This document shows, in pieces, positions 1-33,683 of a stretch of 36,520 bases of DNA. The notes under the pieces are model-generated. The model had not been told where the DNA came from, ran no database searches, and saw only the letters and a program-made list of their open reading frames with translations. The DNA is from Actinomycetota bacterium (lineage in GTDB: Bacteria > Actinomycetota > UBA4738 > HRBIN12), in contig DASQWI010000015.1 in the NCBI GenBank assembly GCA_035640355.1, positions 1-36,520 on the forward strand, read 5' to 3'. The translations under genes and the position numbers were made by a program. The number at the start of each line of letters is the position of its first letter. The first letter of the stretch is position 1.

Positions 1-255
1 CGCCGGGGCCGCCGGTGTGGGTGCCGCTGCGCCTCCGTCGCCTGAAGCCGCCCCATCCGGCGACGGCGGCGCGCCAGCCGCCGGAGCGGCCGCGCCGGGA
101 GCCGTCGGAGCCTCACCCGTCTTTGCCCGGTGCGCCTGCACGGCCGCCCGTCGAGCGCGACCCTCGGCCACGCGGCGGTCGGTGCCCTTCGCGAGCTCCT
201 CGGCGAGGACGCGATCGAGTGTTTCCTGGTCGAGCTCCGCCTCTTCCCGAGCCAC
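1..255 (-). CDS. Partial Pro/Ala-rich protein with charged N-terminal motif, downstream of cytochrome b
   Basis: The frame starts at GTG (255-253), nine bases past the cytochrome b stop, behind a good Shine-Dalgarno (TAGGAGG). It stays open for 85 codons to the window edge, so the C-terminus is missing. Residues 11-37 are a charged, probably helical segment containing VLAEELAKGTDRRVAEG. From about residue 45 the chain becomes a low-complexity Ala/Pro/Gly linker. Residues 11-37 match the extreme C-terminus of NuoI2 (32759-32839) at 19 of 27 positions without gaps. Its place directly after cytochrome b suggests a further subunit of the same quinol-oxidising complex, for example a subunit IV-like or cytochrome c-bearing polypeptide with a tethered N-terminal motif, but the part that would identify it is outside the window. 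I do not recognise a named family. Confidence 0.75.
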   Translation of the reverse strand, partial: MAREEAELDQETLDRVLAEELAKGTDRRVAEGRARRAAVQAHRAKTGEAPTAPGAAAPAAGAPPSPDGAASGDGGAAAPTPAAPA

Positions 256-264
256 TCTTGCCTC

Positions 265-1035
265 CTACAGCGGTCCGGAGATCCCGCCGTCCTTGCGGAT
301 CCTCCAAAAGTGCACGGACAGGAAGATCACCAGGACGAACGGCAACGCGAGGACGTGCAAGACGTACCAACGGAGCAACGTGTCCGGTCCGACGACGATG
401 CCGCCCAGCAGCAGGAAGTTCGCTTGCTTCGCGATCAGCGGCGAGTACCCGGCGAGCGACGTGCCCACCGTGACGGCCCAGATCGAGAGCTGGTCCCACG
501 GCAGCAGGTAGCCGGTGAACGACAGCCCCAGCGTCAGGAACAACAGCACCACGCCAACGACCCAGTTGAACTCCCGCGGCGGTTTGTAGGAGCCGGTGTA
601 GAACACGCGCGCCATGTGGAGCGTCACGCTGAACACCATCAGGTGCGCGCCCCATCGGTGGAGGTTCCGTACCAGGTCGCCGAAGAACACCGACGTTCGG
701 ATGTTCTGCATGTCCGCGTACGCCTGCGCGGCGCCGATCTCTGCCGCCGGCCGGTAGAAGAACATCAGGAAGATCCCCGTGACGGTCAGCAGGATGAACA
801 GGAAGAACGACAGGCCGCCCAGGCAGAAGGTGTAGGTCAGCTTCAATCCGTGACGCTTCATCTTCACTGGGTGCAGGTGGTAGAGGACGTTGTTCATCGT
901 CGCGAGAGCGCGATCGCGCGACGTGTCCTTGTAGCCCCTTCTGAAGATGGAGCCAGGTCGGAAGACGGACTTCCAGACCTCGGTCTCTCGAACGCGCTCC
1001 AGGACCTCGTTCGGTGAAGGAGGCCTCAGCTTCAC
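265..1035 (-). CDS. Cytochrome b (b6-type, N-terminal haem domain)
   Basis: This 256-residue protein has the four-helix haem b core of bc/b6f complexes. In membrane helix B, H126 and H140 lie 14 apart in the [13 protein letters not shown] context; helix D has a second pair in YVLH-x14-H. The 14-residue spacing is b6-like. The GYLLPWDQ motif follows helix C. It probably oxidises (mena)quinol in the cytoplasmic membrane. An N-terminal extension of about 60 residues precedes the first membrane helix. Subunit IV is not part of this polypeptide, so it would have to come from the truncated downstream gene or elsewhere. The GTG start (1035-1033) is one base after the ferredoxin stop, implying one operon. 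No Rieske gene is visible beside it; a ferredoxin occupies that place. Cytochrome b identity is firm; the exact complex type is inferred. Confidence 0.92.
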
Positions 1036-1036
1036 G

Positions 1037-1435
1037 CTACTCGGCCTCGGCTCGCTGGGATTCGGGAACTGCGGCCATGGTGCGGCGTCCGCCGGTGCCC
1101 TCGGGAAGACGCGCGTAGTACAACGTGTCGGTCGGGCACCGCTCGACGCACACGGAGCATCTGGTGCACGCGTTGTCGTCGACGACGAAGATCGAATACG
1201 TCGTGGCGATCTCGGCTTCGACCGCCTCGTTCGGTACGTCCTGGACGATGTCCGGAGCCATCATGAAGATGCAGTTCCATGGGCATACGTCCTCACACGC
1301 GCGGCACAGGATGCAGTTGTCCGGATCGAGCATCAGGTGCTTGGGCGACCTCACGCCCTTGGAGAGCCATTCGGGGTCGACCGCCTCGACGACGTAGTCG
1401 GTGTGGACGTCGACCTCGGTCTTCTGGAAGGGCAT
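1037..1435 (-). CDS. 2x[4Fe-4S] ferredoxin-type protein of the cytochrome b module
   Basis: A 132-residue cytoplasmic electron carrier or subunit. Two clusters are predicted: C41-x2-C44-x2-C47-x3-C51-P and C90-x2-C93-x2-C96-x3-C100-P. An additional cysteine, C55, follows the first cluster (CPWNC); the same fifth cysteine occurs in NuoI2 (CPDWC) but not in NuoI1. I chose ATG at 1435 because TTAGGAGAG lies just upstream; a longer open frame to 1543 overlaps the preceding gene and lacks similarity. The gene lies between a small membrane protein and cytochrome b, where a classical bc operon would carry a Rieske protein. A likely role is electron transfer to or from the cytochrome b module, but the direction cannot be read from sequence. 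Confidence 0.88.
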
Positions 1436-1460: not shown

Positions 1461-1811
1461 TCATCGATATCCGCCGCCGACGCGCTCCGCCGAGCCGCCG
1501 CGGAGCTTGCGGCGCCAGTTCTGCATGATCGCGGCGGCGACAACCAGCGTGACGAACGGGCCCGTCGCCAGCCCCGCGGCGACGGCGTCCCGCGCCAGCG
1601 GCCGCCAGTCCGACGTTCCTGATAGCCCGTCCCATCCGAGCTTCTGCTCAGCGAAGTACAGCCAGAACGAGGGGATCACGGCCATCGAGATCACGCTGAA
1701 GAAACTGAACGCCACGGCGAACAGGACCGCGCTGGTCCACGTCCATTCGAAGTCCCTGATTCGGGGCTCGACGCGCCGTCTCAGCTCGAGGACCCTGTCC
1801 GGGACCTTCAT
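1461..1811 (-). CDS. Small membrane protein, first gene of the cytochrome b operon
   Basis: A 116-residue protein of unrecognised family. It has two predicted membrane helices (about residues 28-50 and 80-103), a charged amphipathic N-terminus and an Arg-rich C-terminal tail, in keeping with the positive-inside rule for cytoplasmic ends. The ATG at 1811 has GAGGAT upstream; the longer open frame reaching 1991 would run through the Rex-like operator and promoter region, so the shorter start is preferred. It is followed after about 25 bases by the ferredoxin gene and then cytochrome b, which suggests a membrane anchor or accessory subunit for that complex. No cofactor ligand motif is visible. 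Confidence 0.7.
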   Translation of the reverse strand: MKVPDRVLELRRRVEPRIRDFEWTWTSAVLFAVAFSFFSVISMAVIPSFWLYFAEQKLGWDGLSGTSDWRPLARDAVAAGLATGPFVTLVVAAAIMQNWRRKLRGGSAERVGGGYR

Positions 1812-7855: not shown

Positions 7856-8833
7856 ATGAGGCCGGATCTGCGGGACCGGGTCGTGCTTCCGATCTTGTTG
7901 CCGCTCGGCATCATCCTGTTTCTCGTCGCGCTGCTGTGGGGGTTCTCGCGGCTGTTGCTCGGAGTCACCGCGACGGCGGCGACGGTGACGGCAACCGTGG
8001 TTGCGTTGGGGATCCTGGTCGTCTCGGCCGTCGCCGCGAACCGTCACACGATCCGGAGCTCGACGATCGGCGCCGCGTTCGGCGCGACGGTCGGCCTGGC
8101 AATGGTCACCGGCGGCATCGCGCTCGCCGTCGTCGGATCCGGAGAGGCGGAGGAGCCGGACGAGAACGGCGCCCACGGAGCGACGGTGGAGCTCGCGGCG
8201 GCGAACATCGCCTTCGAGCCGACGACGCTGTCGGCTCCCGCGGACACACCGTTCACGATCGAGTTCGACAACCGCGACAGCGCCCAGCACAACGTGGAGA
8301 TCTTCGACAACCCCGAGCGCTCCGGGACCCCTTTGTTCGAGGGCGAGATCGTCACCGGACCGGCGACCGTCGCCTATCAGGTCGATCCGCTCGCGGAAGG
8401 GACGTACTTCTTCCTGTGCGTGGTTCATCCGCAGATGACCGGTGAGATCGAGGTGGCTCCGGGCTCGCCGGGTGGTGAGCCCGGCGGGGAACCCGGCGGA
8501 CCCGGCGGGGAAACGGGTGGAGGGCCACCCGGTGACGGAGCGCCCGGCGGTGCCGAGCCGGCCACGGTGGTCGCTCAAGGCATCGCCTTCGACACGGACA
8601 CGATCTCGCTGCCAGCCGATCAGCCGTCGACGATTACCTTCGACAACCGCGACACGGTGCCGCACAACATCGCGATCTACACGGACAGTTCGCTGTCCGA
8701 GGCTCTCTTCCAGGGCGAGATCGTCACCGGCCCGGCGACCGCGCAATACGAGGTCCCGCCGGAGCCGGCGGGGGAGTACTACTTCCATTGCGACGTGCAC
8801 CCGACCATGAACGGAACGGTCACGGTCGGCTGA
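7856..8833 (+). CDS. Membrane-anchored double cupredoxin
   Basis: A 325-residue protein. Residues 1-95 hold three predicted membrane helices. Two cupredoxin domains follow, about 105-200 and 230-325, joined by a Gly/Pro-rich linker (200-228). Each has a complete type 1 copper site: H145, C188, H191, M194 in the first and H270, C312, H315, M318 in the second, with the C-x2-H-x2-M spacing. The domains share FDNRD, GEIVTGPAT and VHP-x-M, so they arose by internal duplication. The copper sites would face outside the cytoplasm. The place between ctaG and a TlpA-like gene suggests an electron carrier to the oxidase or a copper donor for CuA. Its stop overlaps the next start as TGATG. Confidence 0.88.
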   Translation: MRPDLRDRVVLPILLPLGIILFLVALLWGFSRLLLGVTATAATVTATVVALGILVVSAVAANRHTIRSSTIGAAFGATVGLAMVTGGIALAVVGSGEAEEPDENGAHGATVELAAANIAFEPTTLSAPADTPFTIEFDNRDSAQHNVEIFDNPERSGTPLFEGEIVTGPATVAYQVDPLAEGTYFFLCVVHPQMTGEIEVAPGSPGGEPGGEPGGPGGETGGGPPGDGAPGGAEPATVVAQGIAFDTDTISLPADQPSTITFDNRDTVPHNIAIYTDSSLSEALFQGEIVTGPATAQYEVPPEPAGEYYFHCDVHPTMNGTVTVG

Positions 8834-21068: not shown

Positions 21069-22189
21069 TGGACTGGCTCGACTGGGTACTGCTCGTCGTC
21101 CGCGTCGTCGTCGTCTTCTTCGCGCTGCTCCTCAGCGTGCTGGTCCTGATCTGGATCGAGCGCAAGGTCATCGCCGACATGCAGACGCGCGTCGGGCCGA
21201 TGCGCGCCGGGCCGCGAGGCGTGCTCGTGACGCTCGCCGACGGCATCAAGCTCTTCTTCAAGGAAGGGATCACACCGACGCTCGTGGACCGACCCGTCTA
21301 CGCGATCGCGCCGGTCATCTCCTTGCTTCCGGCGTTCCTGTCCTTTGCTGTGATCCCGTTCGGACCCGGTGTCGAACTGTTCGGCCGACACGTTCCGTTC
21401 CAGATCGCCGACCTCAGCATCGGCGTCCTGTGGATCCTGGCCATGGGGTCGCTGATGGTCTACTCGATCGTCCTCGCGGGCTGGTCCAGCGGCTCGAACT
21501 ACCCGCTCCTCGGCAGCATCCGAAGCACCGCGCAGATGATCAGCTACGAGGTGGGGTTGGCGCTCGCGCTGGTCGCCGTCCTCATGTATTCGGGTTCGCT
21601 GCGGATGTCGGAGATCGTCGCCGGCCAGGACACGGTATGGAACATCGTGCCGCAGTTCCCTTCGTTCGTGATCTACCTGATCGCAGGGCTGGCCGAAACC
21701 AACCGTCCGCCGTTCGACCTTCCTGAGGCCGAGTCCGAGCTCGTCGCCGGGTACCACACCGAGTACTCCGGCATCAAGTTCGCCATGTTCTTCCTCGGCG
21801 AGTACCTCAACGTCATCACCGTTGCCGCTGTCGCGACGACGCTGTGGCTCGGCGGGTGGCGAGGTCCGGCGCCGGACTTCCTGCCGTGGCTGTGGCCGGT
21901 CCTGTGGTTCTTGCTGAAGGTGTTCCTGATCATCTACGTCTATATCTGGGTTCGTGCGACGCTGCCGCGGTTCCGCTACGACCGGCTGATGAGCTTTGGG
22001 TGGAAGGTCCTGATCCCGTTCGGGCTCGTGTGGATCCTGGCCACGGGTGCGGTCGTCGTGCTGCCCGACGTCTACAGCCGGCGTGCGGTCATCATCGGCG
22101 CGGCGCTCGTCGTGGCGGCGGTTCTCGCTCTCTCACTCGTGTGGCCGCTGCTCTCGCGACCCGCTTCCCGGGAGGTACGACAGCCGTGA
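21065..22189 (+). CDS. nuoH: NADH-quinone oxidoreductase subunit H
   Basis: A 374-residue, eight- or nine-helix subunit linking the quinone site to the membrane arm. It has [18 protein letters not shown] and the canonical acidic quinone loop [19 protein letters not shown] followed by EYSGIKF. Start codons ATG 21065 and 21068 are adjacent (ATGATG); the first overlaps the nuoG stop. The quinone loop is an informative contrast to NuoH2, which lacks the PEAE acids. The stop overlaps the nuoI GTG. Confidence 0.97.
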
Positions 22190-22680
22190 GTGACCGGCGG
22201 CCGGGCGTCGACTTCGGCGGTGCGATCGGCGCGATCGCGAAAGGTATGGGAACCGTCTTCAAGCAGGTCTTCCGCCGCGACGTCACCGAGCAGTACCCGA
22301 GCCAGATCGTGCAGCCGCCCCCCCGGAGCCACATCGGGCGTCACCTGCTGAACCGGCACGAGAACGGCCTGGAGAAGTGCATCGGGTGCGAGCTCTGTGC
22401 GTACGCCTGTCCCGCCGACGCGATCTGGGTGGTCGGTGAGGACAACGACCCCGAGAATCCGACGAGCCCTGGCGAGCGGTACGCAAAGGACTACCAGATC
22501 AACTACCTGCGCTGCATCATGTGCGGCCTCTGCGTGGAGGCGTGCCCCACGCGAGCGCTCACGCTGACCAGCGCCTATGAGATGAGCTTCTTCTCCCGCG
22601 AGGAGGCCATCCTGACCAAGGAGCAGCTCCTCGAGCCGCCGCTGCCCCTCGGAACGGCGCCCGGAACCGGAGAGGGCTAG
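22186..22680 (+). CDS. nuoI: NADH-quinone oxidoreductase subunit I
   Basis: A 164-residue peripheral-arm ferredoxin with two [4Fe-4S] clusters, N6a and N6b, that passes electrons to N2. Motifs are [16 protein letters not shown] and [19 protein letters not shown] 22186 has GGGAGG upstream and overlaps the nuoH stop; the open frame upstream is the antisense-free shadow of nuoH. The protein ends shortly after the second cluster region (GTAPGTGEG), with no long tail, in contrast to NuoI2. Confidence 0.97.
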
Positions 22681-29636: not shown

Positions 29637-30002
29637 GTGGAGACCTACTACGAGTCCTACGGGGTCGTCCTCGCGGTCCTGGTGACCGGCATCGGCCTCG
29701 TTGCGGTGGCGTTCGGGGCCGCGCGGCTGGTTGCTCCCCGGCGTCCGATCCCCACGAAGCTTCTGACCTACGAGTGCGGTATCGATCCCGTGGGCCAGGG
29801 CTGGTCGCAGTCGCAGGTCCGCTACTACATCTACGGCTTCCTGTTCGTGATCTTCGACGTCGAGGCCGTCTTCCTGTTCCCGTGGGCCGGCATCTTCGAG
29901 GGGCTCGGCTACCAGGCAGTCGTGGAGATGGGTATCTTCATCGGCATCCTCGCCGTCGGGCTCCTCTACGCGTGGCGCAAGGGGGTGCTGCGGTGGGCCT
30001 GA
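29637..30002 (+). CDS. nuoA2: NADH-quinone oxidoreductase-like subunit A, second operon
   Basis: A 121-residue, three-helix subunit with YECGIDP and [13 protein letters not shown]. It opens the second nuo operon. The GTG lies in a small palindrome (CCACTAAGTGG), and no Shine-Dalgarno is visible upstream, so a leaderless or very short-leader message is possible. It overlaps nuoB2 by ten bases. The sequence is clearly diverged from NuoA1, so this is an old paralogue rather than a recent copy. Confidence 0.94.
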
Positions 30003-30505
30003 TCACCGAGAAGACGCCGCTCGCCCAGATCCAGCCGGTCAAGTTCTTGCTCAACTGGGGGCGGCGCTACTCGCTGTGGGTGTTCAACTTCGGGCTCGCG
30101 TGCTGCTCCATCGAGTTCATCGCGGCATCGACGTCCAAGCACGATTTCATCCGGTTCGGGGTGATCCCCTTCGCGCACGGGCCCCGACAGGCGGATCTGC
30201 TCGTCATCGCCGGTACGCCGACGGACAAGATGTCGCCGGTGATCAAGCGCCTGTACGACCAGATGCCCGAACCCAAGTACGTGATCTCGATGGGATCCTG
30301 CTCCAACTGCGGGGGCCCTTACTGGGACTCGTACTCGGTAACGAAGGGGATCGACCAGATCCTGCCGGTCGACGTCTACGTGCCGGGGTGTCCGCCTCGG
30401 CCCGAGGCACTGCTCGAGGGGATCATTCGTCTACAGGAGAAGATCGCCGGCGAGGACATCAGGGAGAAGTGGAGTGGCAAGCGCACTCCCGCTGCCGCCC
30501 CCTGA
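29993..30505 (+). CDS. nuoB2: NADH-quinone oxidoreductase-like subunit B, second operon
   Basis: A 170-residue N2-cluster subunit. Ligand motifs are LACCSIEF (C37, C38), [14 protein letters not shown] and [13 protein letters not shown]. The extra cysteine in GSCSNCGG is absent from NuoB1 (GVCASYGG). The GTG at 29993 lies within the end of nuoA2 with GGGGG upstream; in-frame codons further upstream are out of register with any NuoB similarity. Retention of all N2 ligands implies a redox-active peripheral arm although no nuoD2 is present. Confidence 0.95.
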
Positions 30506-30998
30506 GGTCGAGACGCGCGTTCGCGCGCAGTTCGGGGACGACGTCCTCGCGTTCGAGGATCAGTTCGGTCACTCGGTCGTCACGGTCTCGATCGAGCGCT
30601 ACCGCGAGCTCATGCGCTTCCTTCGTGACGAACCGGACTTGGCGTGCGACTACTGCGACTTCACGGCGGGCGTCGACCGCGGTGAAGCAGGGATCGAGAT
30701 CGTCACGCACGTCTTCTCGACGAGCCGCAAGCACAACGTCCGCGTGAAGGTGGTCCTGCCGGCGGATCGTTTGGTGTGTCCGACCATTTCGGACATCTAC
30801 CCGACGGCGAACTGGCACGAGCGCGAGACGATGGAGATGTTCGGCGTTACGTTCGACGACCACCCGATGCCCGTTCGCCTGCTCCTCGCCGAGGCCTTCG
30901 AGGGCCATCCGCTGCGCAAGGACTTCGAGCTCATGTCCCGCGTGGTGAAACCGTGGCCCGGCGCCGTCGAGGGCGAGGAGGAGGAAGAGGAGGAGTGA
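30474..30998 (+). CDS. nuoC2: NADH-quinone oxidoreductase-like subunit C, second operon
   Basis: A 174-residue 30-kDa-type subunit with [18 protein letters not shown] and [10 protein letters not shown]. The usual DMF/DMY acid of the motif is Glu (EMF) and the following Gly-His is Asp-His. The C-terminus is a run of seven glutamates after PGAVEGE. GTG 30474 overlaps nuoB2 by 32 bases and has GGGAGAAG about eight bases before it. Its stop overlaps nuoH2 as GTGA, so there is no room for nuoD, which follows nuoC in most operons. Confidence 0.94.
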
Positions 30999-32002
30999 TC
31001 GCGCAGTCGGGCGTGAGCTTCGTCGACCAATGGCTGAGCAGCTATTGGCTCGTGCTCATCGTCAAGACCGCCGTGGTCATCGTGTTCTTCCTCGTAGCAC
31101 CGCTCGGCGTCGGCTACTTGGAGCACAAGGTCCTCGCGCACATGCAGGCCAGGCTTGGGCCGATGTACGCGGGCATGTTCCACGGCTGGGCACAGCTGCT
31201 CGCCGACGGAGTGAAGTTCATCCAGAAGGAGGACGTCATCCCCGCGGCTGCTGACCGTTGGGTGTTCTCGCTCGCCCCCGGCGTCGTGCTCGTGCCGTAC
31301 ATCGCGCTGTTCGTCGTGATCCCGTTCTCCGACGAGATCTTCATCCTGAACCTCGACGTCGGCATCTTCTTCGTTCTCGCCGTCACGTCGGTGAGCGTGA
31401 TCGGAACGTTGATGGCCGGGTGGGCCTCGGCGAACAAGTTCTCGCTGATCGGCGCGCTTCGCGCCGCCGCCCAGCTGATCGCGTACGAGCTGCCGCTCGT
31501 CCTCGCCGCAGCCGCTGTCGTTATGCAGGCGGCCACGCTCTCGATGGTAGGGATCGTCGAGGCGCAGCAGCAGTACTGGTTCGTCATCTCGCAGCCGATC
31601 GGGTTCGGCATCTTCGTCGTCGCGGCGCTCGCCGAGCTCACACGTCCGCCGTTCGACATGCCGGTGGCCGACTCGGAGATCATCTTCGGCGCACTGACCG
31701 AGTACACCGGGCTGAAGTTCGCGTTCTTCCTGCTCGCGGAGTACGGCGGCATCGTGGCGCTGTCGGCCGTCGCGTCCGTGTTGTACCTCGGCGGATACCA
31801 GCCGGCGCCGTTCCTCGAGGCGATCCCGGAGCCGCTGTGGATGGCGGCAAAGATCGGGGCACTTTCGTTCTTCATCATATGGCTGCGCGCGACGTACCCG
31901 CGGATGCGCGAGGACCAGCTCCAGCGCCTCTCGTGGCTCACGCTGATCCCGTTGGCGTTGCTCCAGGTCTTGGTGGTGGGGATCTTGAAGGTGGCGTTCT
32001 AG
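30995..32002 (+). CDS. nuoH2: NADH-quinone oxidoreductase-like subunit H, second operon
   Basis: A 335-residue multi-helix subunit of the membrane-arm heel. It differs from NuoH1 at the quinone end: LEHKVLAHMQARLGP replaces ERKVIADMQ, and ELTRPPFDMPVADSEIIFG replaces the canonical [10 protein letters not shown], so the first acid is Val and the second is Asp. The later EYTGLKF is kept. GTG 30995 overlaps the nuoC2 stop. The divergence suggests an altered quinone funnel or a changed partner in place of the missing NuoD. Confidence 0.94.
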   Translation: MIAQSGVSFVDQWLSSYWLVLIVKTAVVIVFFLVAPLGVGYLEHKVLAHMQARLGPMYAGMFHGWAQLLADGVKFIQKEDVIPAAADRWVFSLAPGVVLVPYIALFVVIPFSDEIFILNLDVGIFFVLAVTSVSVIGTLMAGWASANKFSLIGALRAAAQLIAYELPLVLAAAAVVMQAATLSMVGIVEAQQQYWFVISQPIGFGIFVVAALAELTRPPFDMPVADSEIIFGALTEYTGLKFAFFLLAEYGGIVALSAVASVLYLGGYQPAPFLEAIPEPLWMAAKIGALSFFIIWLRATYPRMREDQLQRLSWLTLIPLALLQVLVVGILKVAF

Positions 32003-32878
32003 ATGTCGATCGACGAAGACGACGCCCGAACGTCGCCTGAGGTTCGCGGAACCGGCCTCGGCCTGGTCAAGGGCCTGGGCGTCACGCTCAAGCACGCGCT
32101 CCGGCCTTCGATCACGCAACAGTACCCGGAGGAAAAGCCCGACCTTCCTCCTCGCACGCGCGGGGTGATCGCGCTCAAGGAAGCGAACTGCACCGTTTGC
32201 TGGAAGTGCTCACGGGAGTGCCCCGACTGGTGCATCTACATCGAGACCCACAAGGAGACGCACGATCCGGCGTCGGGCGGCAAGGCGCGGTCGGTCAAGG
32301 TGCTCGACCGGTTCGCGATCGACTACGCGCTGTGCATGTACTGCGGGATCTGCGTCGAGGTGTGCCCGTTCGACGCGCTGTTCTGGAGCCCGGAGTTCGA
32401 GTACTCCGAGTACGACATCGTCGAGCTGGTCCACGAGAAGGAGAAGCTCGAGGAGTGGACGTACACGGTCCTGCCGCCGCCCGAGCTCGAGGAGGGCGCC
32501 GAGCCCGCTCAAGAGGTTGCCTCGCCGTCCACCGCGGCCGCATCACCGACCGCTCCCACCCCCGCGGCCGTTGCCGAGCCTCCGGCACCATCGGGCGCGG
32601 CCCCGACCACGGACCAACCGGCCGGCGTTGCCGCGGCCGCCCCGGCCGCTCCCGCTCCGCCGGCCGAGCAGCCGACGCCCCACGAGCAGACGCCGGCCGC
32701 CGCGGCTCCGACGCCCGCCCCGGCTGCCGCCGCGCACGTCGAGGTCCAGCCTGACGCCGAGACGTATGAGCGCGTGCTCGCCGAGCAGCTCGCGCAGGGC
32801 AAGGACCGCCGCGTTGCTGACGGACTGGCCAAGCGCGCGGGGATCATCGAGGCTCGCAAGAAGGCCGGAGGGGGCTAG
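32003..32878 (+). CDS. nuoI2: NADH-quinone oxidoreductase-like subunit I with long Pro/Ala tail, second operon
   Basis: A 291-residue protein, far longer than NuoI1 (164). Residues 1-165 are the two-cluster ferredoxin: C63-x2-C66-x2-C69-x3-C73-P with an extra C77 (CPDWC), and [16 protein letters not shown]. About residues 165-250 form a Pro/Ala-rich linker like those of flexible-tether proteins. The last 39 residues are charged and probably helical, with [17 protein letters not shown]; residues 253-279 match the partial protein at 1-255 at 19 of 27 positions. The linker resembles those of 2-oxo acid dehydrogenases, but no lipoyl or E3-binding motif is present. ATG directly follows the nuoH2 stop. 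Confidence 0.95.
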
Positions 32879-32883
32879 CCGCC

Positions 32884-33384
32884 ATGACGGCCCATGAGTA
32901 CGCGTTCATCCTGCTCGCCCTCATCGGGACGGTCGCCGCTCTCCGTGTCGTGACGGCGCGGAACGTCGTGCACGCGGCGCTGTACCTCGTCGTGACGCTC
33001 GCGAGCGCCGGTGGCGCGTACCTCCTCCTGGCCGCCGAGTTCGTCGCCTGGGTACAGATCCTGATCTACGTCGGCGCGATCGTGATCCTGTTCCTGTTCG
33101 GCCTGATGCTGACCAAGGCACCGATCGGCCGAGAGGCCCTCGACAATCAACGTCGTGGAGCCGCGATCGTGGTCGCCCTGGCGATCCTGGCCGGCTTGAT
33201 CTTCCTGATCCAGGACGCGTTCTCGTGGGACGGCCCGAAGATCCAACCCCGAACCGGGGGAGCGGCTGCCGTCGGCGAATCGATCTTCAGCCGCTACGTC
33301 TTGCCGTTCGAGGTCGTGTCGTTCCTCCTGCTCGGCGCGCTGATCGGCGCGATCGTGCTGTCGCGCAGGGACGACTCGACGTGA
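32884..33384 (+). CDS. nuoJ2: NADH-quinone oxidoreductase-like subunit J, second operon
   Basis: A 166-residue, five-helix subunit with [20 protein letters not shown] and the helix 3 segment [16 protein letters not shown]. The loop before the last helix is shorter than in NuoJ1. ATG 32884 is five bases after nuoI2; the stop overlaps the nuoK2 GTG. Confidence 0.93.
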
Positions 33385-33683
33385 TCAGGCTCCCCATCGT
33401 CCTGCTCTTCTCGGCGGCCCTGTTCTCGATCGGCGTCTACGGCGTGCTTGCCAGGCGGAACGGGGTCCTCGTGCTGATGTCGATCGAGCTGATGCTGAAC
33501 GCAGTGAACATCAACCTGGTGGCGTTCAGTCAGGCGCTGGGCTCGCTCGCGGGGCAGGTGTTCGCCTTGTTCGTGATCGCCGTTGCGGCGGCGGAGGTGG
33601 GCATCGGCCTGGCGATCGTGATCCTGATCTACCGCAACCGGGAGACGATCAACATCGACGAGGTGAACCTCCTCAAGTGGTAG
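33381..33683 (+). CDS. nuoK2: NADH-quinone oxidoreductase-like subunit K, second operon
   Basis: A 100-residue, three-helix subunit. Both buried glutamates are retained ([15 protein letters not shown] and [14 protein letters not shown]). GTG 33381 overlaps nuoJ2 as GTGA; the longer open frame from 33225 lies inside nuoJ2. Confidence 0.95.

Follow-up and report, generated by a model that had tools for sequence, protein, structure and literature searches.

The window, the whole stretch of DNA analysed here, covers positions 1 to 36,520 of contig DASQWI010000015.1 in the assembly GCA_035640355.1 of an Actinomycetota bacterium (lineage Bacteria; Actinomycetota; UBA4738; HRBIN12). Its first base is the start of the contig (C15), where a bc-complex operon lies on the minus strand. 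The frame at 1..255 (P0001, 85 aa) is probably the 5' part of a gene for a PetD-like protein (cytochrome b C-terminal / subunit IV), cut inside its linker because the window begins at the contig edge. In four related loci (L043, L047, L048, L050), its orthologues lie directly after the same cytochrome b gene (product ending KDGGISGPL-stop) and encode complete PetD-like proteins in which the same N-terminal motif is followed by a Pro/Ala linker and the cytochrome b C-terminal / subunit IV domain. The L043 orthologue matches PF00032 (1.8e-8) and b6f subunit IV structures; the window copy ends before that region. The remaining minus-strand genes of the operon encode the b6-like N-terminal half of cytochrome b (265..1035, by gene calls; the L043 orthologue matches PF00033), a 2x[4Fe-4S] ferredoxin-like subunit (1037..1435, from its sequence and the Fer4 matches of an orthologue) and a small membrane protein (1461..1811) that holds the same place in the four related loci. 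A ferredoxin-like gene also stands ahead of cytochrome b in distant families (L114, L116, L119). To judge from sequence, a bc complex with such a subunit hints at electron exchange with ferredoxin.

At the other end of the window, the plus-strand nuo2 cluster (29637..33683, by gene calls) carries nuoA2 (29637), nuoB2 (29993), nuoC2 (30474), nuoH2 (30995), nuoI2, nuoJ2 (32884) and nuoK2 (33381), with neither nuoEFG nor nuoD among its genes. nuoD is likewise missing between nuoC2 and nuoH2 in five related clusters (L034, L036, L038, L041, L045). A lone NuoD of 396 aa (PF00346) is encoded on contig C9 (G000:C9, L249:2794-3984) beside selA-like and selB-like genes and is probably the subunit missing from the cluster. 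NuoI2 (32003..32878, plus strand), between nuoH2 and nuoJ2, is the Fe-S subunit of this complex I lacking NuoEFG, with a NuoI core at residues ~1-165 recognised by the NuoI profile and PDB homologues. It matches TIGR01971 at 3.9e-28 over residues 24-149 (97.5 bits, below the curated cut-off of 113), and its two 4Fe-4S motifs give Fer4 matches over the cut-off; by these sequence measures NuoI2 qualifies as a NuoI / NDUFS8 protein. The likeness, including that to PDB homologues, covers residues ~20-151, whereas neither the family models nor the solved homologues reach the linker and predicted hairpin that follow residue ~165. NuoC2 (30474-30998, plus strand) ends in a glutamate run (EEEEEEE) that recurs in three of the related clusters (L036, L041, L045); an acidic tail and a basic hairpin belong to the same complex. 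NuoI1 (22186..22680, plus strand), from a complete complex I with NuoEFG, serves as an internal control: it has no long Pro/Ala tail and gave no own-genome match to the motif. No tag is found on the window's other membrane complexes either. A membrane protein with two cupredoxin domains (7856-8833, plus strand) adjoins oxidase genes and lacks the motif, unlike the cupredoxins of families f5 and f45.

The shared segment and its predicted fold

P0001 residues 11-37 (145..225, minus strand) and NuoI2 residues 253-279 (32759-32839, plus strand) are identical at 19 of 27 positions without a gap, exactly as a first-pass annotation had reported. Similarity continues over about 46 residues in all, for a BLOSUM62 score of 117. 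The runner-up among the genes of the window reaches 41, and in 300 shuffles the maximum averaged 38.9 and never exceeded 57. Over the 27 codons, the DNA of the two copies differs at 4, 4 and 14 first, second and third positions. Since the differences are mainly at third positions, the likeness is kept at the protein level.

Around these cores, alignments and an own-genome match (E 9.4e-9) delimit a candidate docking domain of ~45 aa at the N-terminus of the PetD-like protein (112..252, minus strand); the copy at the C-terminus of NuoI2 (32735..32869, plus strand) is delimited by an own-genome match and its AlphaFold2 helices. The motif precedes a Pro/Ala-rich linker in P0001 (residues 48-85, 1..114, minus strand; 66% P+A, incomplete) and follows one in NuoI2 (residues 166-245, 32498..32737, plus strand; 64% P+A), which bears out the earlier description of linkers on opposite sides of the motif. 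Composition suggests that the linkers are disordered, and the pLDDT of the NuoI2 linker, mostly <50 in a model built from a shallow alignment, adds weak support. A third copy in the genome (C26:130391-130525) is C-terminal in a further protein, here called X.

Run on 22 copies, AlphaFold2 predicts one helix at segment residues 8-20 and another at 25-45 (mean pLDDT 91.4, pTM 0.71). The hairpin reaches a pLDDT of ~93 inside the full-length NuoI2 model, where only seven sequences were aligned; because of this shallow alignment the NuoI core falls under 50, and the packing of the tail cannot be read from the model. Helix 1 is acidic and helix 2 basic, with a mean net charge of +3.8 to +5.9 across three clades, and G22, A28 and A32 do not vary among 39 copies.

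The first-pass annotation knew no named domain for the segment, and Pfam and NCBIfam scans agree: nothing exceeds a curated cut-off, and the scattered sub-threshold matches reach E 0.012 at best. Searches of solved structures gave no significant match by sequence profile (best E 0.15) or by Foldseek on the hairpin (best E 1.8), and literature searches found no description of the domain. The peripheral subunit-binding domain (E3_binding) of 2-oxoacid dehydrogenase E2 is a docking domain of ~40 residues, helical and set between Pro/Ala-rich linkers. It resembles the hairpin in size, helical nature and flanking linkers, but none of the 39 copies matches it in Pfam (E<=1), and membership was rejected. 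The segment appears to be a small autonomous helical-hairpin domain of ~40 residues, new to curated libraries though of a kind of device already known. Since neither Pfam nor NCBIfam includes it, its description as a new family is already possible.

Hosts and lineages of the domain

The domain is widespread in this order and recurs beyond it. A profile from the three copies of this genome matches all 27 genomes of an order-level search, usually two to four times each, with E-values reaching 1e-27. A 39-copy profile matches 94 of 396 sampled Actinomycetota genomes at E<=0.001. An all-species genome scan limited to clade-A patterns confirmed 20 loci, assigned to Actinobacteria/Actinomycetota or to an unassigned bacterium. 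Outside the order, hosts were read at 60 further loci, with a census of 12 distant genomes. Thirty-nine of the 40 census matches lie in PetD, NuoI, a cupredoxin or an F420/PPOX-like protein, and the PetD-like bc subunit is tagged at its N-terminus in all 12 genomes. The remaining match, in an ABC transporter of G375 (E 0.0038), was judged to be chance. The profile search that the first-pass annotation had proposed therefore finds almost only electron-transfer proteins in the 12 distant genomes, and the outcomes it had named as refuting, matches scattered over unrelated proteins or a pairing absent in relatives, did not occur in the form it had given.

The architecture of the hosts varies. NuoI carries one to three C-terminal copies, and NuoC carries a C-terminal tag at two loci (L167, L193). 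In other families, every tagged cluster that was read across its nuoD-nuoH junction has the two genes side by side, and the tagged NuoI therefore belongs to a cluster lacking NuoEFG. Six cupredoxins (L118, L140, L144, L146, L149, L190) run from motif through linker and transmembrane segment to cupredoxin domain, while three others (L158, L160, L162) run from signal through cupredoxin, transmembrane segment and linker to two motifs; these mirror-image arrangements would both put the motif inside the cell. F420/PPOX-like proteins carry a C-terminal motif in five genomes of families f29, f39 and f47 (L179, L232, L236, L237, L241); that at L179 matches TIGR03667 at 5e-8, below the cut-off. These proteins may help to identify what donates electrons to the EFG-less complex I. 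They are among the rarer hosts, as are a single-pass protein from a locus with a cupredoxin (L156) and a 139-residue frame after nuoN (L192).

Protein X, found only in this order, has an N-terminal hydrophobic region, one transmembrane segment, a positive cytoplasmic side, a Pro/Ala linker and a C-terminal motif. Its K/R counts (0.8 before the segment, 5.7 after it) point to an N-out single-pass protein. Where the topology of a host can be worked out, from transmembrane order, positive-inside charge and likeness to subunit IV of b6f, the domain is predicted to lie on the cytoplasmic side, in most cases at the far end of a Pro/Ala linker. In relatives X adjoins tRNA-Thr and a metalloprotease-TilS-Hpt-FtsH operon, with no respiratory operon there. 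The idea that the motif is confined to respiratory proteins nearly holds in the 12-genome census and is not supported by the setting of X.

The proposal that complex I and the bc complex carry the same tag also stands in part. An unnamed tethered domain is common to both, but 11 close relatives have an intact NuoI2 core with no linker or motif while their PetD and X are still tagged. The NuoI-bc pairing is therefore not obligatory, and tagging of complex I is optional in this family. In G133, where scoring covered 150 of 189 candidates, the single match lies in PetD; this sits poorly with a purely homotypic bridging of different complexes. An optional complex I tag together with a constant PetD host favours a bc-centred role, with other proteins attached by lineage.

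The copies group by lineage rather than by host. Mean identity is 60% between different hosts within a clade and 37% for the same host between clades, in a comparison of 162 rows of which two carry provisional host labels opposite to the later neighbour-based classification. Neighbours classify the fragment L059/L042 (HR12) as X and the fragment L091 (G011) as a NuoI tail. On a poorly resolved tree of 43 columns, clade labels change 3 times and host labels 20 times. In clade C, a 4-residue gap is common to NuoI, NuoC, PetD and the F420/PPOX-like protein. As far as sequences can tell, this pattern suggests that the copies of each lineage have one partner in common, undergo concerted exchange, or both. 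DNA clearly does move between copies, because the NuoI and PPOX-like tails of G375 and G173, in unlinked genes, are 92-93.5% identical over 162-168 bases. Co-evolution with a shared partner and DNA exchange are both compatible with a domain that can be swapped from host to host. Within-family permutation tests of host-host co-variation are weak and mostly not significant (p 0.19, 0.24, 0.004).

A candidate docking tag and its alternatives

The function we favour for the motif, at a probability of roughly 55%, is that of a docking tag on electron-transport proteins. We infer docking from homology, restricted hosts, a confident predicted fold and lineage-wise similarity, all of them computed. 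Disordered Pro/Ala linkers would hang the hairpin on the cytoplasmic side of electron-transport complexes. The tagged PetD-like protein, EFG-less NuoI (sometimes NuoC), cupredoxins, F420-oxidoreductase-like proteins and X might then bind a common partner or each other. The docked components would stay clustered, as a loose tethered supercomplex or around a shared recruitment site. Against such docking count the untagged NuoI2 of the 11 relatives, the single match of G133, the position of X beside ftsH, the weak co-variation tests, and the capacity of gene conversion to give lineage clustering.

The location of X makes a role in biogenesis or quality control worth considering, although we regard it as unlikely. 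A membrane protease or assembly factor, such as FtsH with X as adaptor, might recognise the hairpin on respiratory subunits: the motif-bearing X precedes the metalloprotease-TilS-Hpt-FtsH genes in the loci read from this order, and the tags sit on tethers at protein ends, a common arrangement for recognition tags. X was nevertheless found in this order only, whereas the motifs of PetD, NuoI and cupredoxins span several other families; the NuoI proteins with up to three copies, and the untagged NuoI1 and other membrane complexes of the window, also speak against it. Marginally less probable is a surface-binding hairpin that needs no particular protein partner, its basic second helix, positively charged in the three clades, holding the tails to anionic lipid or RNA. 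Conservation goes beyond charge to the three invariant residues, lineage features such as the 4-residue gap are common to different hosts, and every membrane host is already anchored.

A passive coding repeat, a functionless segment spread by recombination between high-GC tails rich in Pro and Ala, would account for the near-identical DNA of unlinked NuoI and PPOX-like genes and for the loss of NuoI tails in 11 relatives. The third-position bias of the differences, the confident predicted fold, the persistence in distant lineages and the near confinement of hosts to electron transport make this reading improbable. Chance, or a generic charged coiled coil, would find its argument in the alanine- and charge-rich composition; it is refuted by the shuffle test, the profile E-values and the single chance-like match in 40, and we give it almost no weight.

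Returning to the docking tag, a bolder version is possible but doubtful, in our estimate: that an undescribed family of docking domains organises the respiratory chain of deep-branching Actinomycetota, with copies of one mobile hairpin on the bc complex, an EFG-less complex I, cupredoxins and an F420-linked protein joining electron donors, both complexes and copper carriers, at the cytoplasmic face, into a respirasome held together by flexible tethers. Supercomplexes of complex I and bc are much discussed, but few can be recognised by a simple signature in sequence. If real, a portable tag on a limited set of electron-transport proteins would open such association to tests by pull-down or deletion. 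It would also indicate where the EFG-less complex I obtains its electrons (ferredoxin or F420) and provide a tool for linking redox proteins.

Devices of comparable design occur elsewhere. The docking motif of the chloroplast proteins TROL and Tic62 sits on a proline-rich linker or tail. The motifs on these membrane-protein tails recruit FNR (PMC4455228, PMC8825262). In the actinobacterial bcc-aa3 supercomplex, a C-terminal extension of QcrB contacts CtaDEF (PMC8795186). No evidence was found that the hairpin belongs to either group, TROL/Tic62 having been compared by literature description only and QcrB by motif position and description; membership in the QcrB extension was rejected on the N-terminal position of the motif, on a separate PetD-like subunit. 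The likeness to TROL/Tic62 lies in a short, repeatable docking motif on a proline-rich membrane-protein tail that recruits an electron-transfer enzyme, but there the partner is known (FNR), whereas here it is hypothetical and the hairpin is carried by core complex I and bc subunits. The QcrB extension is similarly an actinobacteria-specific addition, through which a bc complex is docked to a second respiratory complex. It is structured and bound to the aa3 oxidase, whereas the hairpin stands at the end of a long linker and has copies on several further proteins. By analogy, the TROL/Tic62 motifs and the QcrB extension would be the nearest functional counterparts of the domain.
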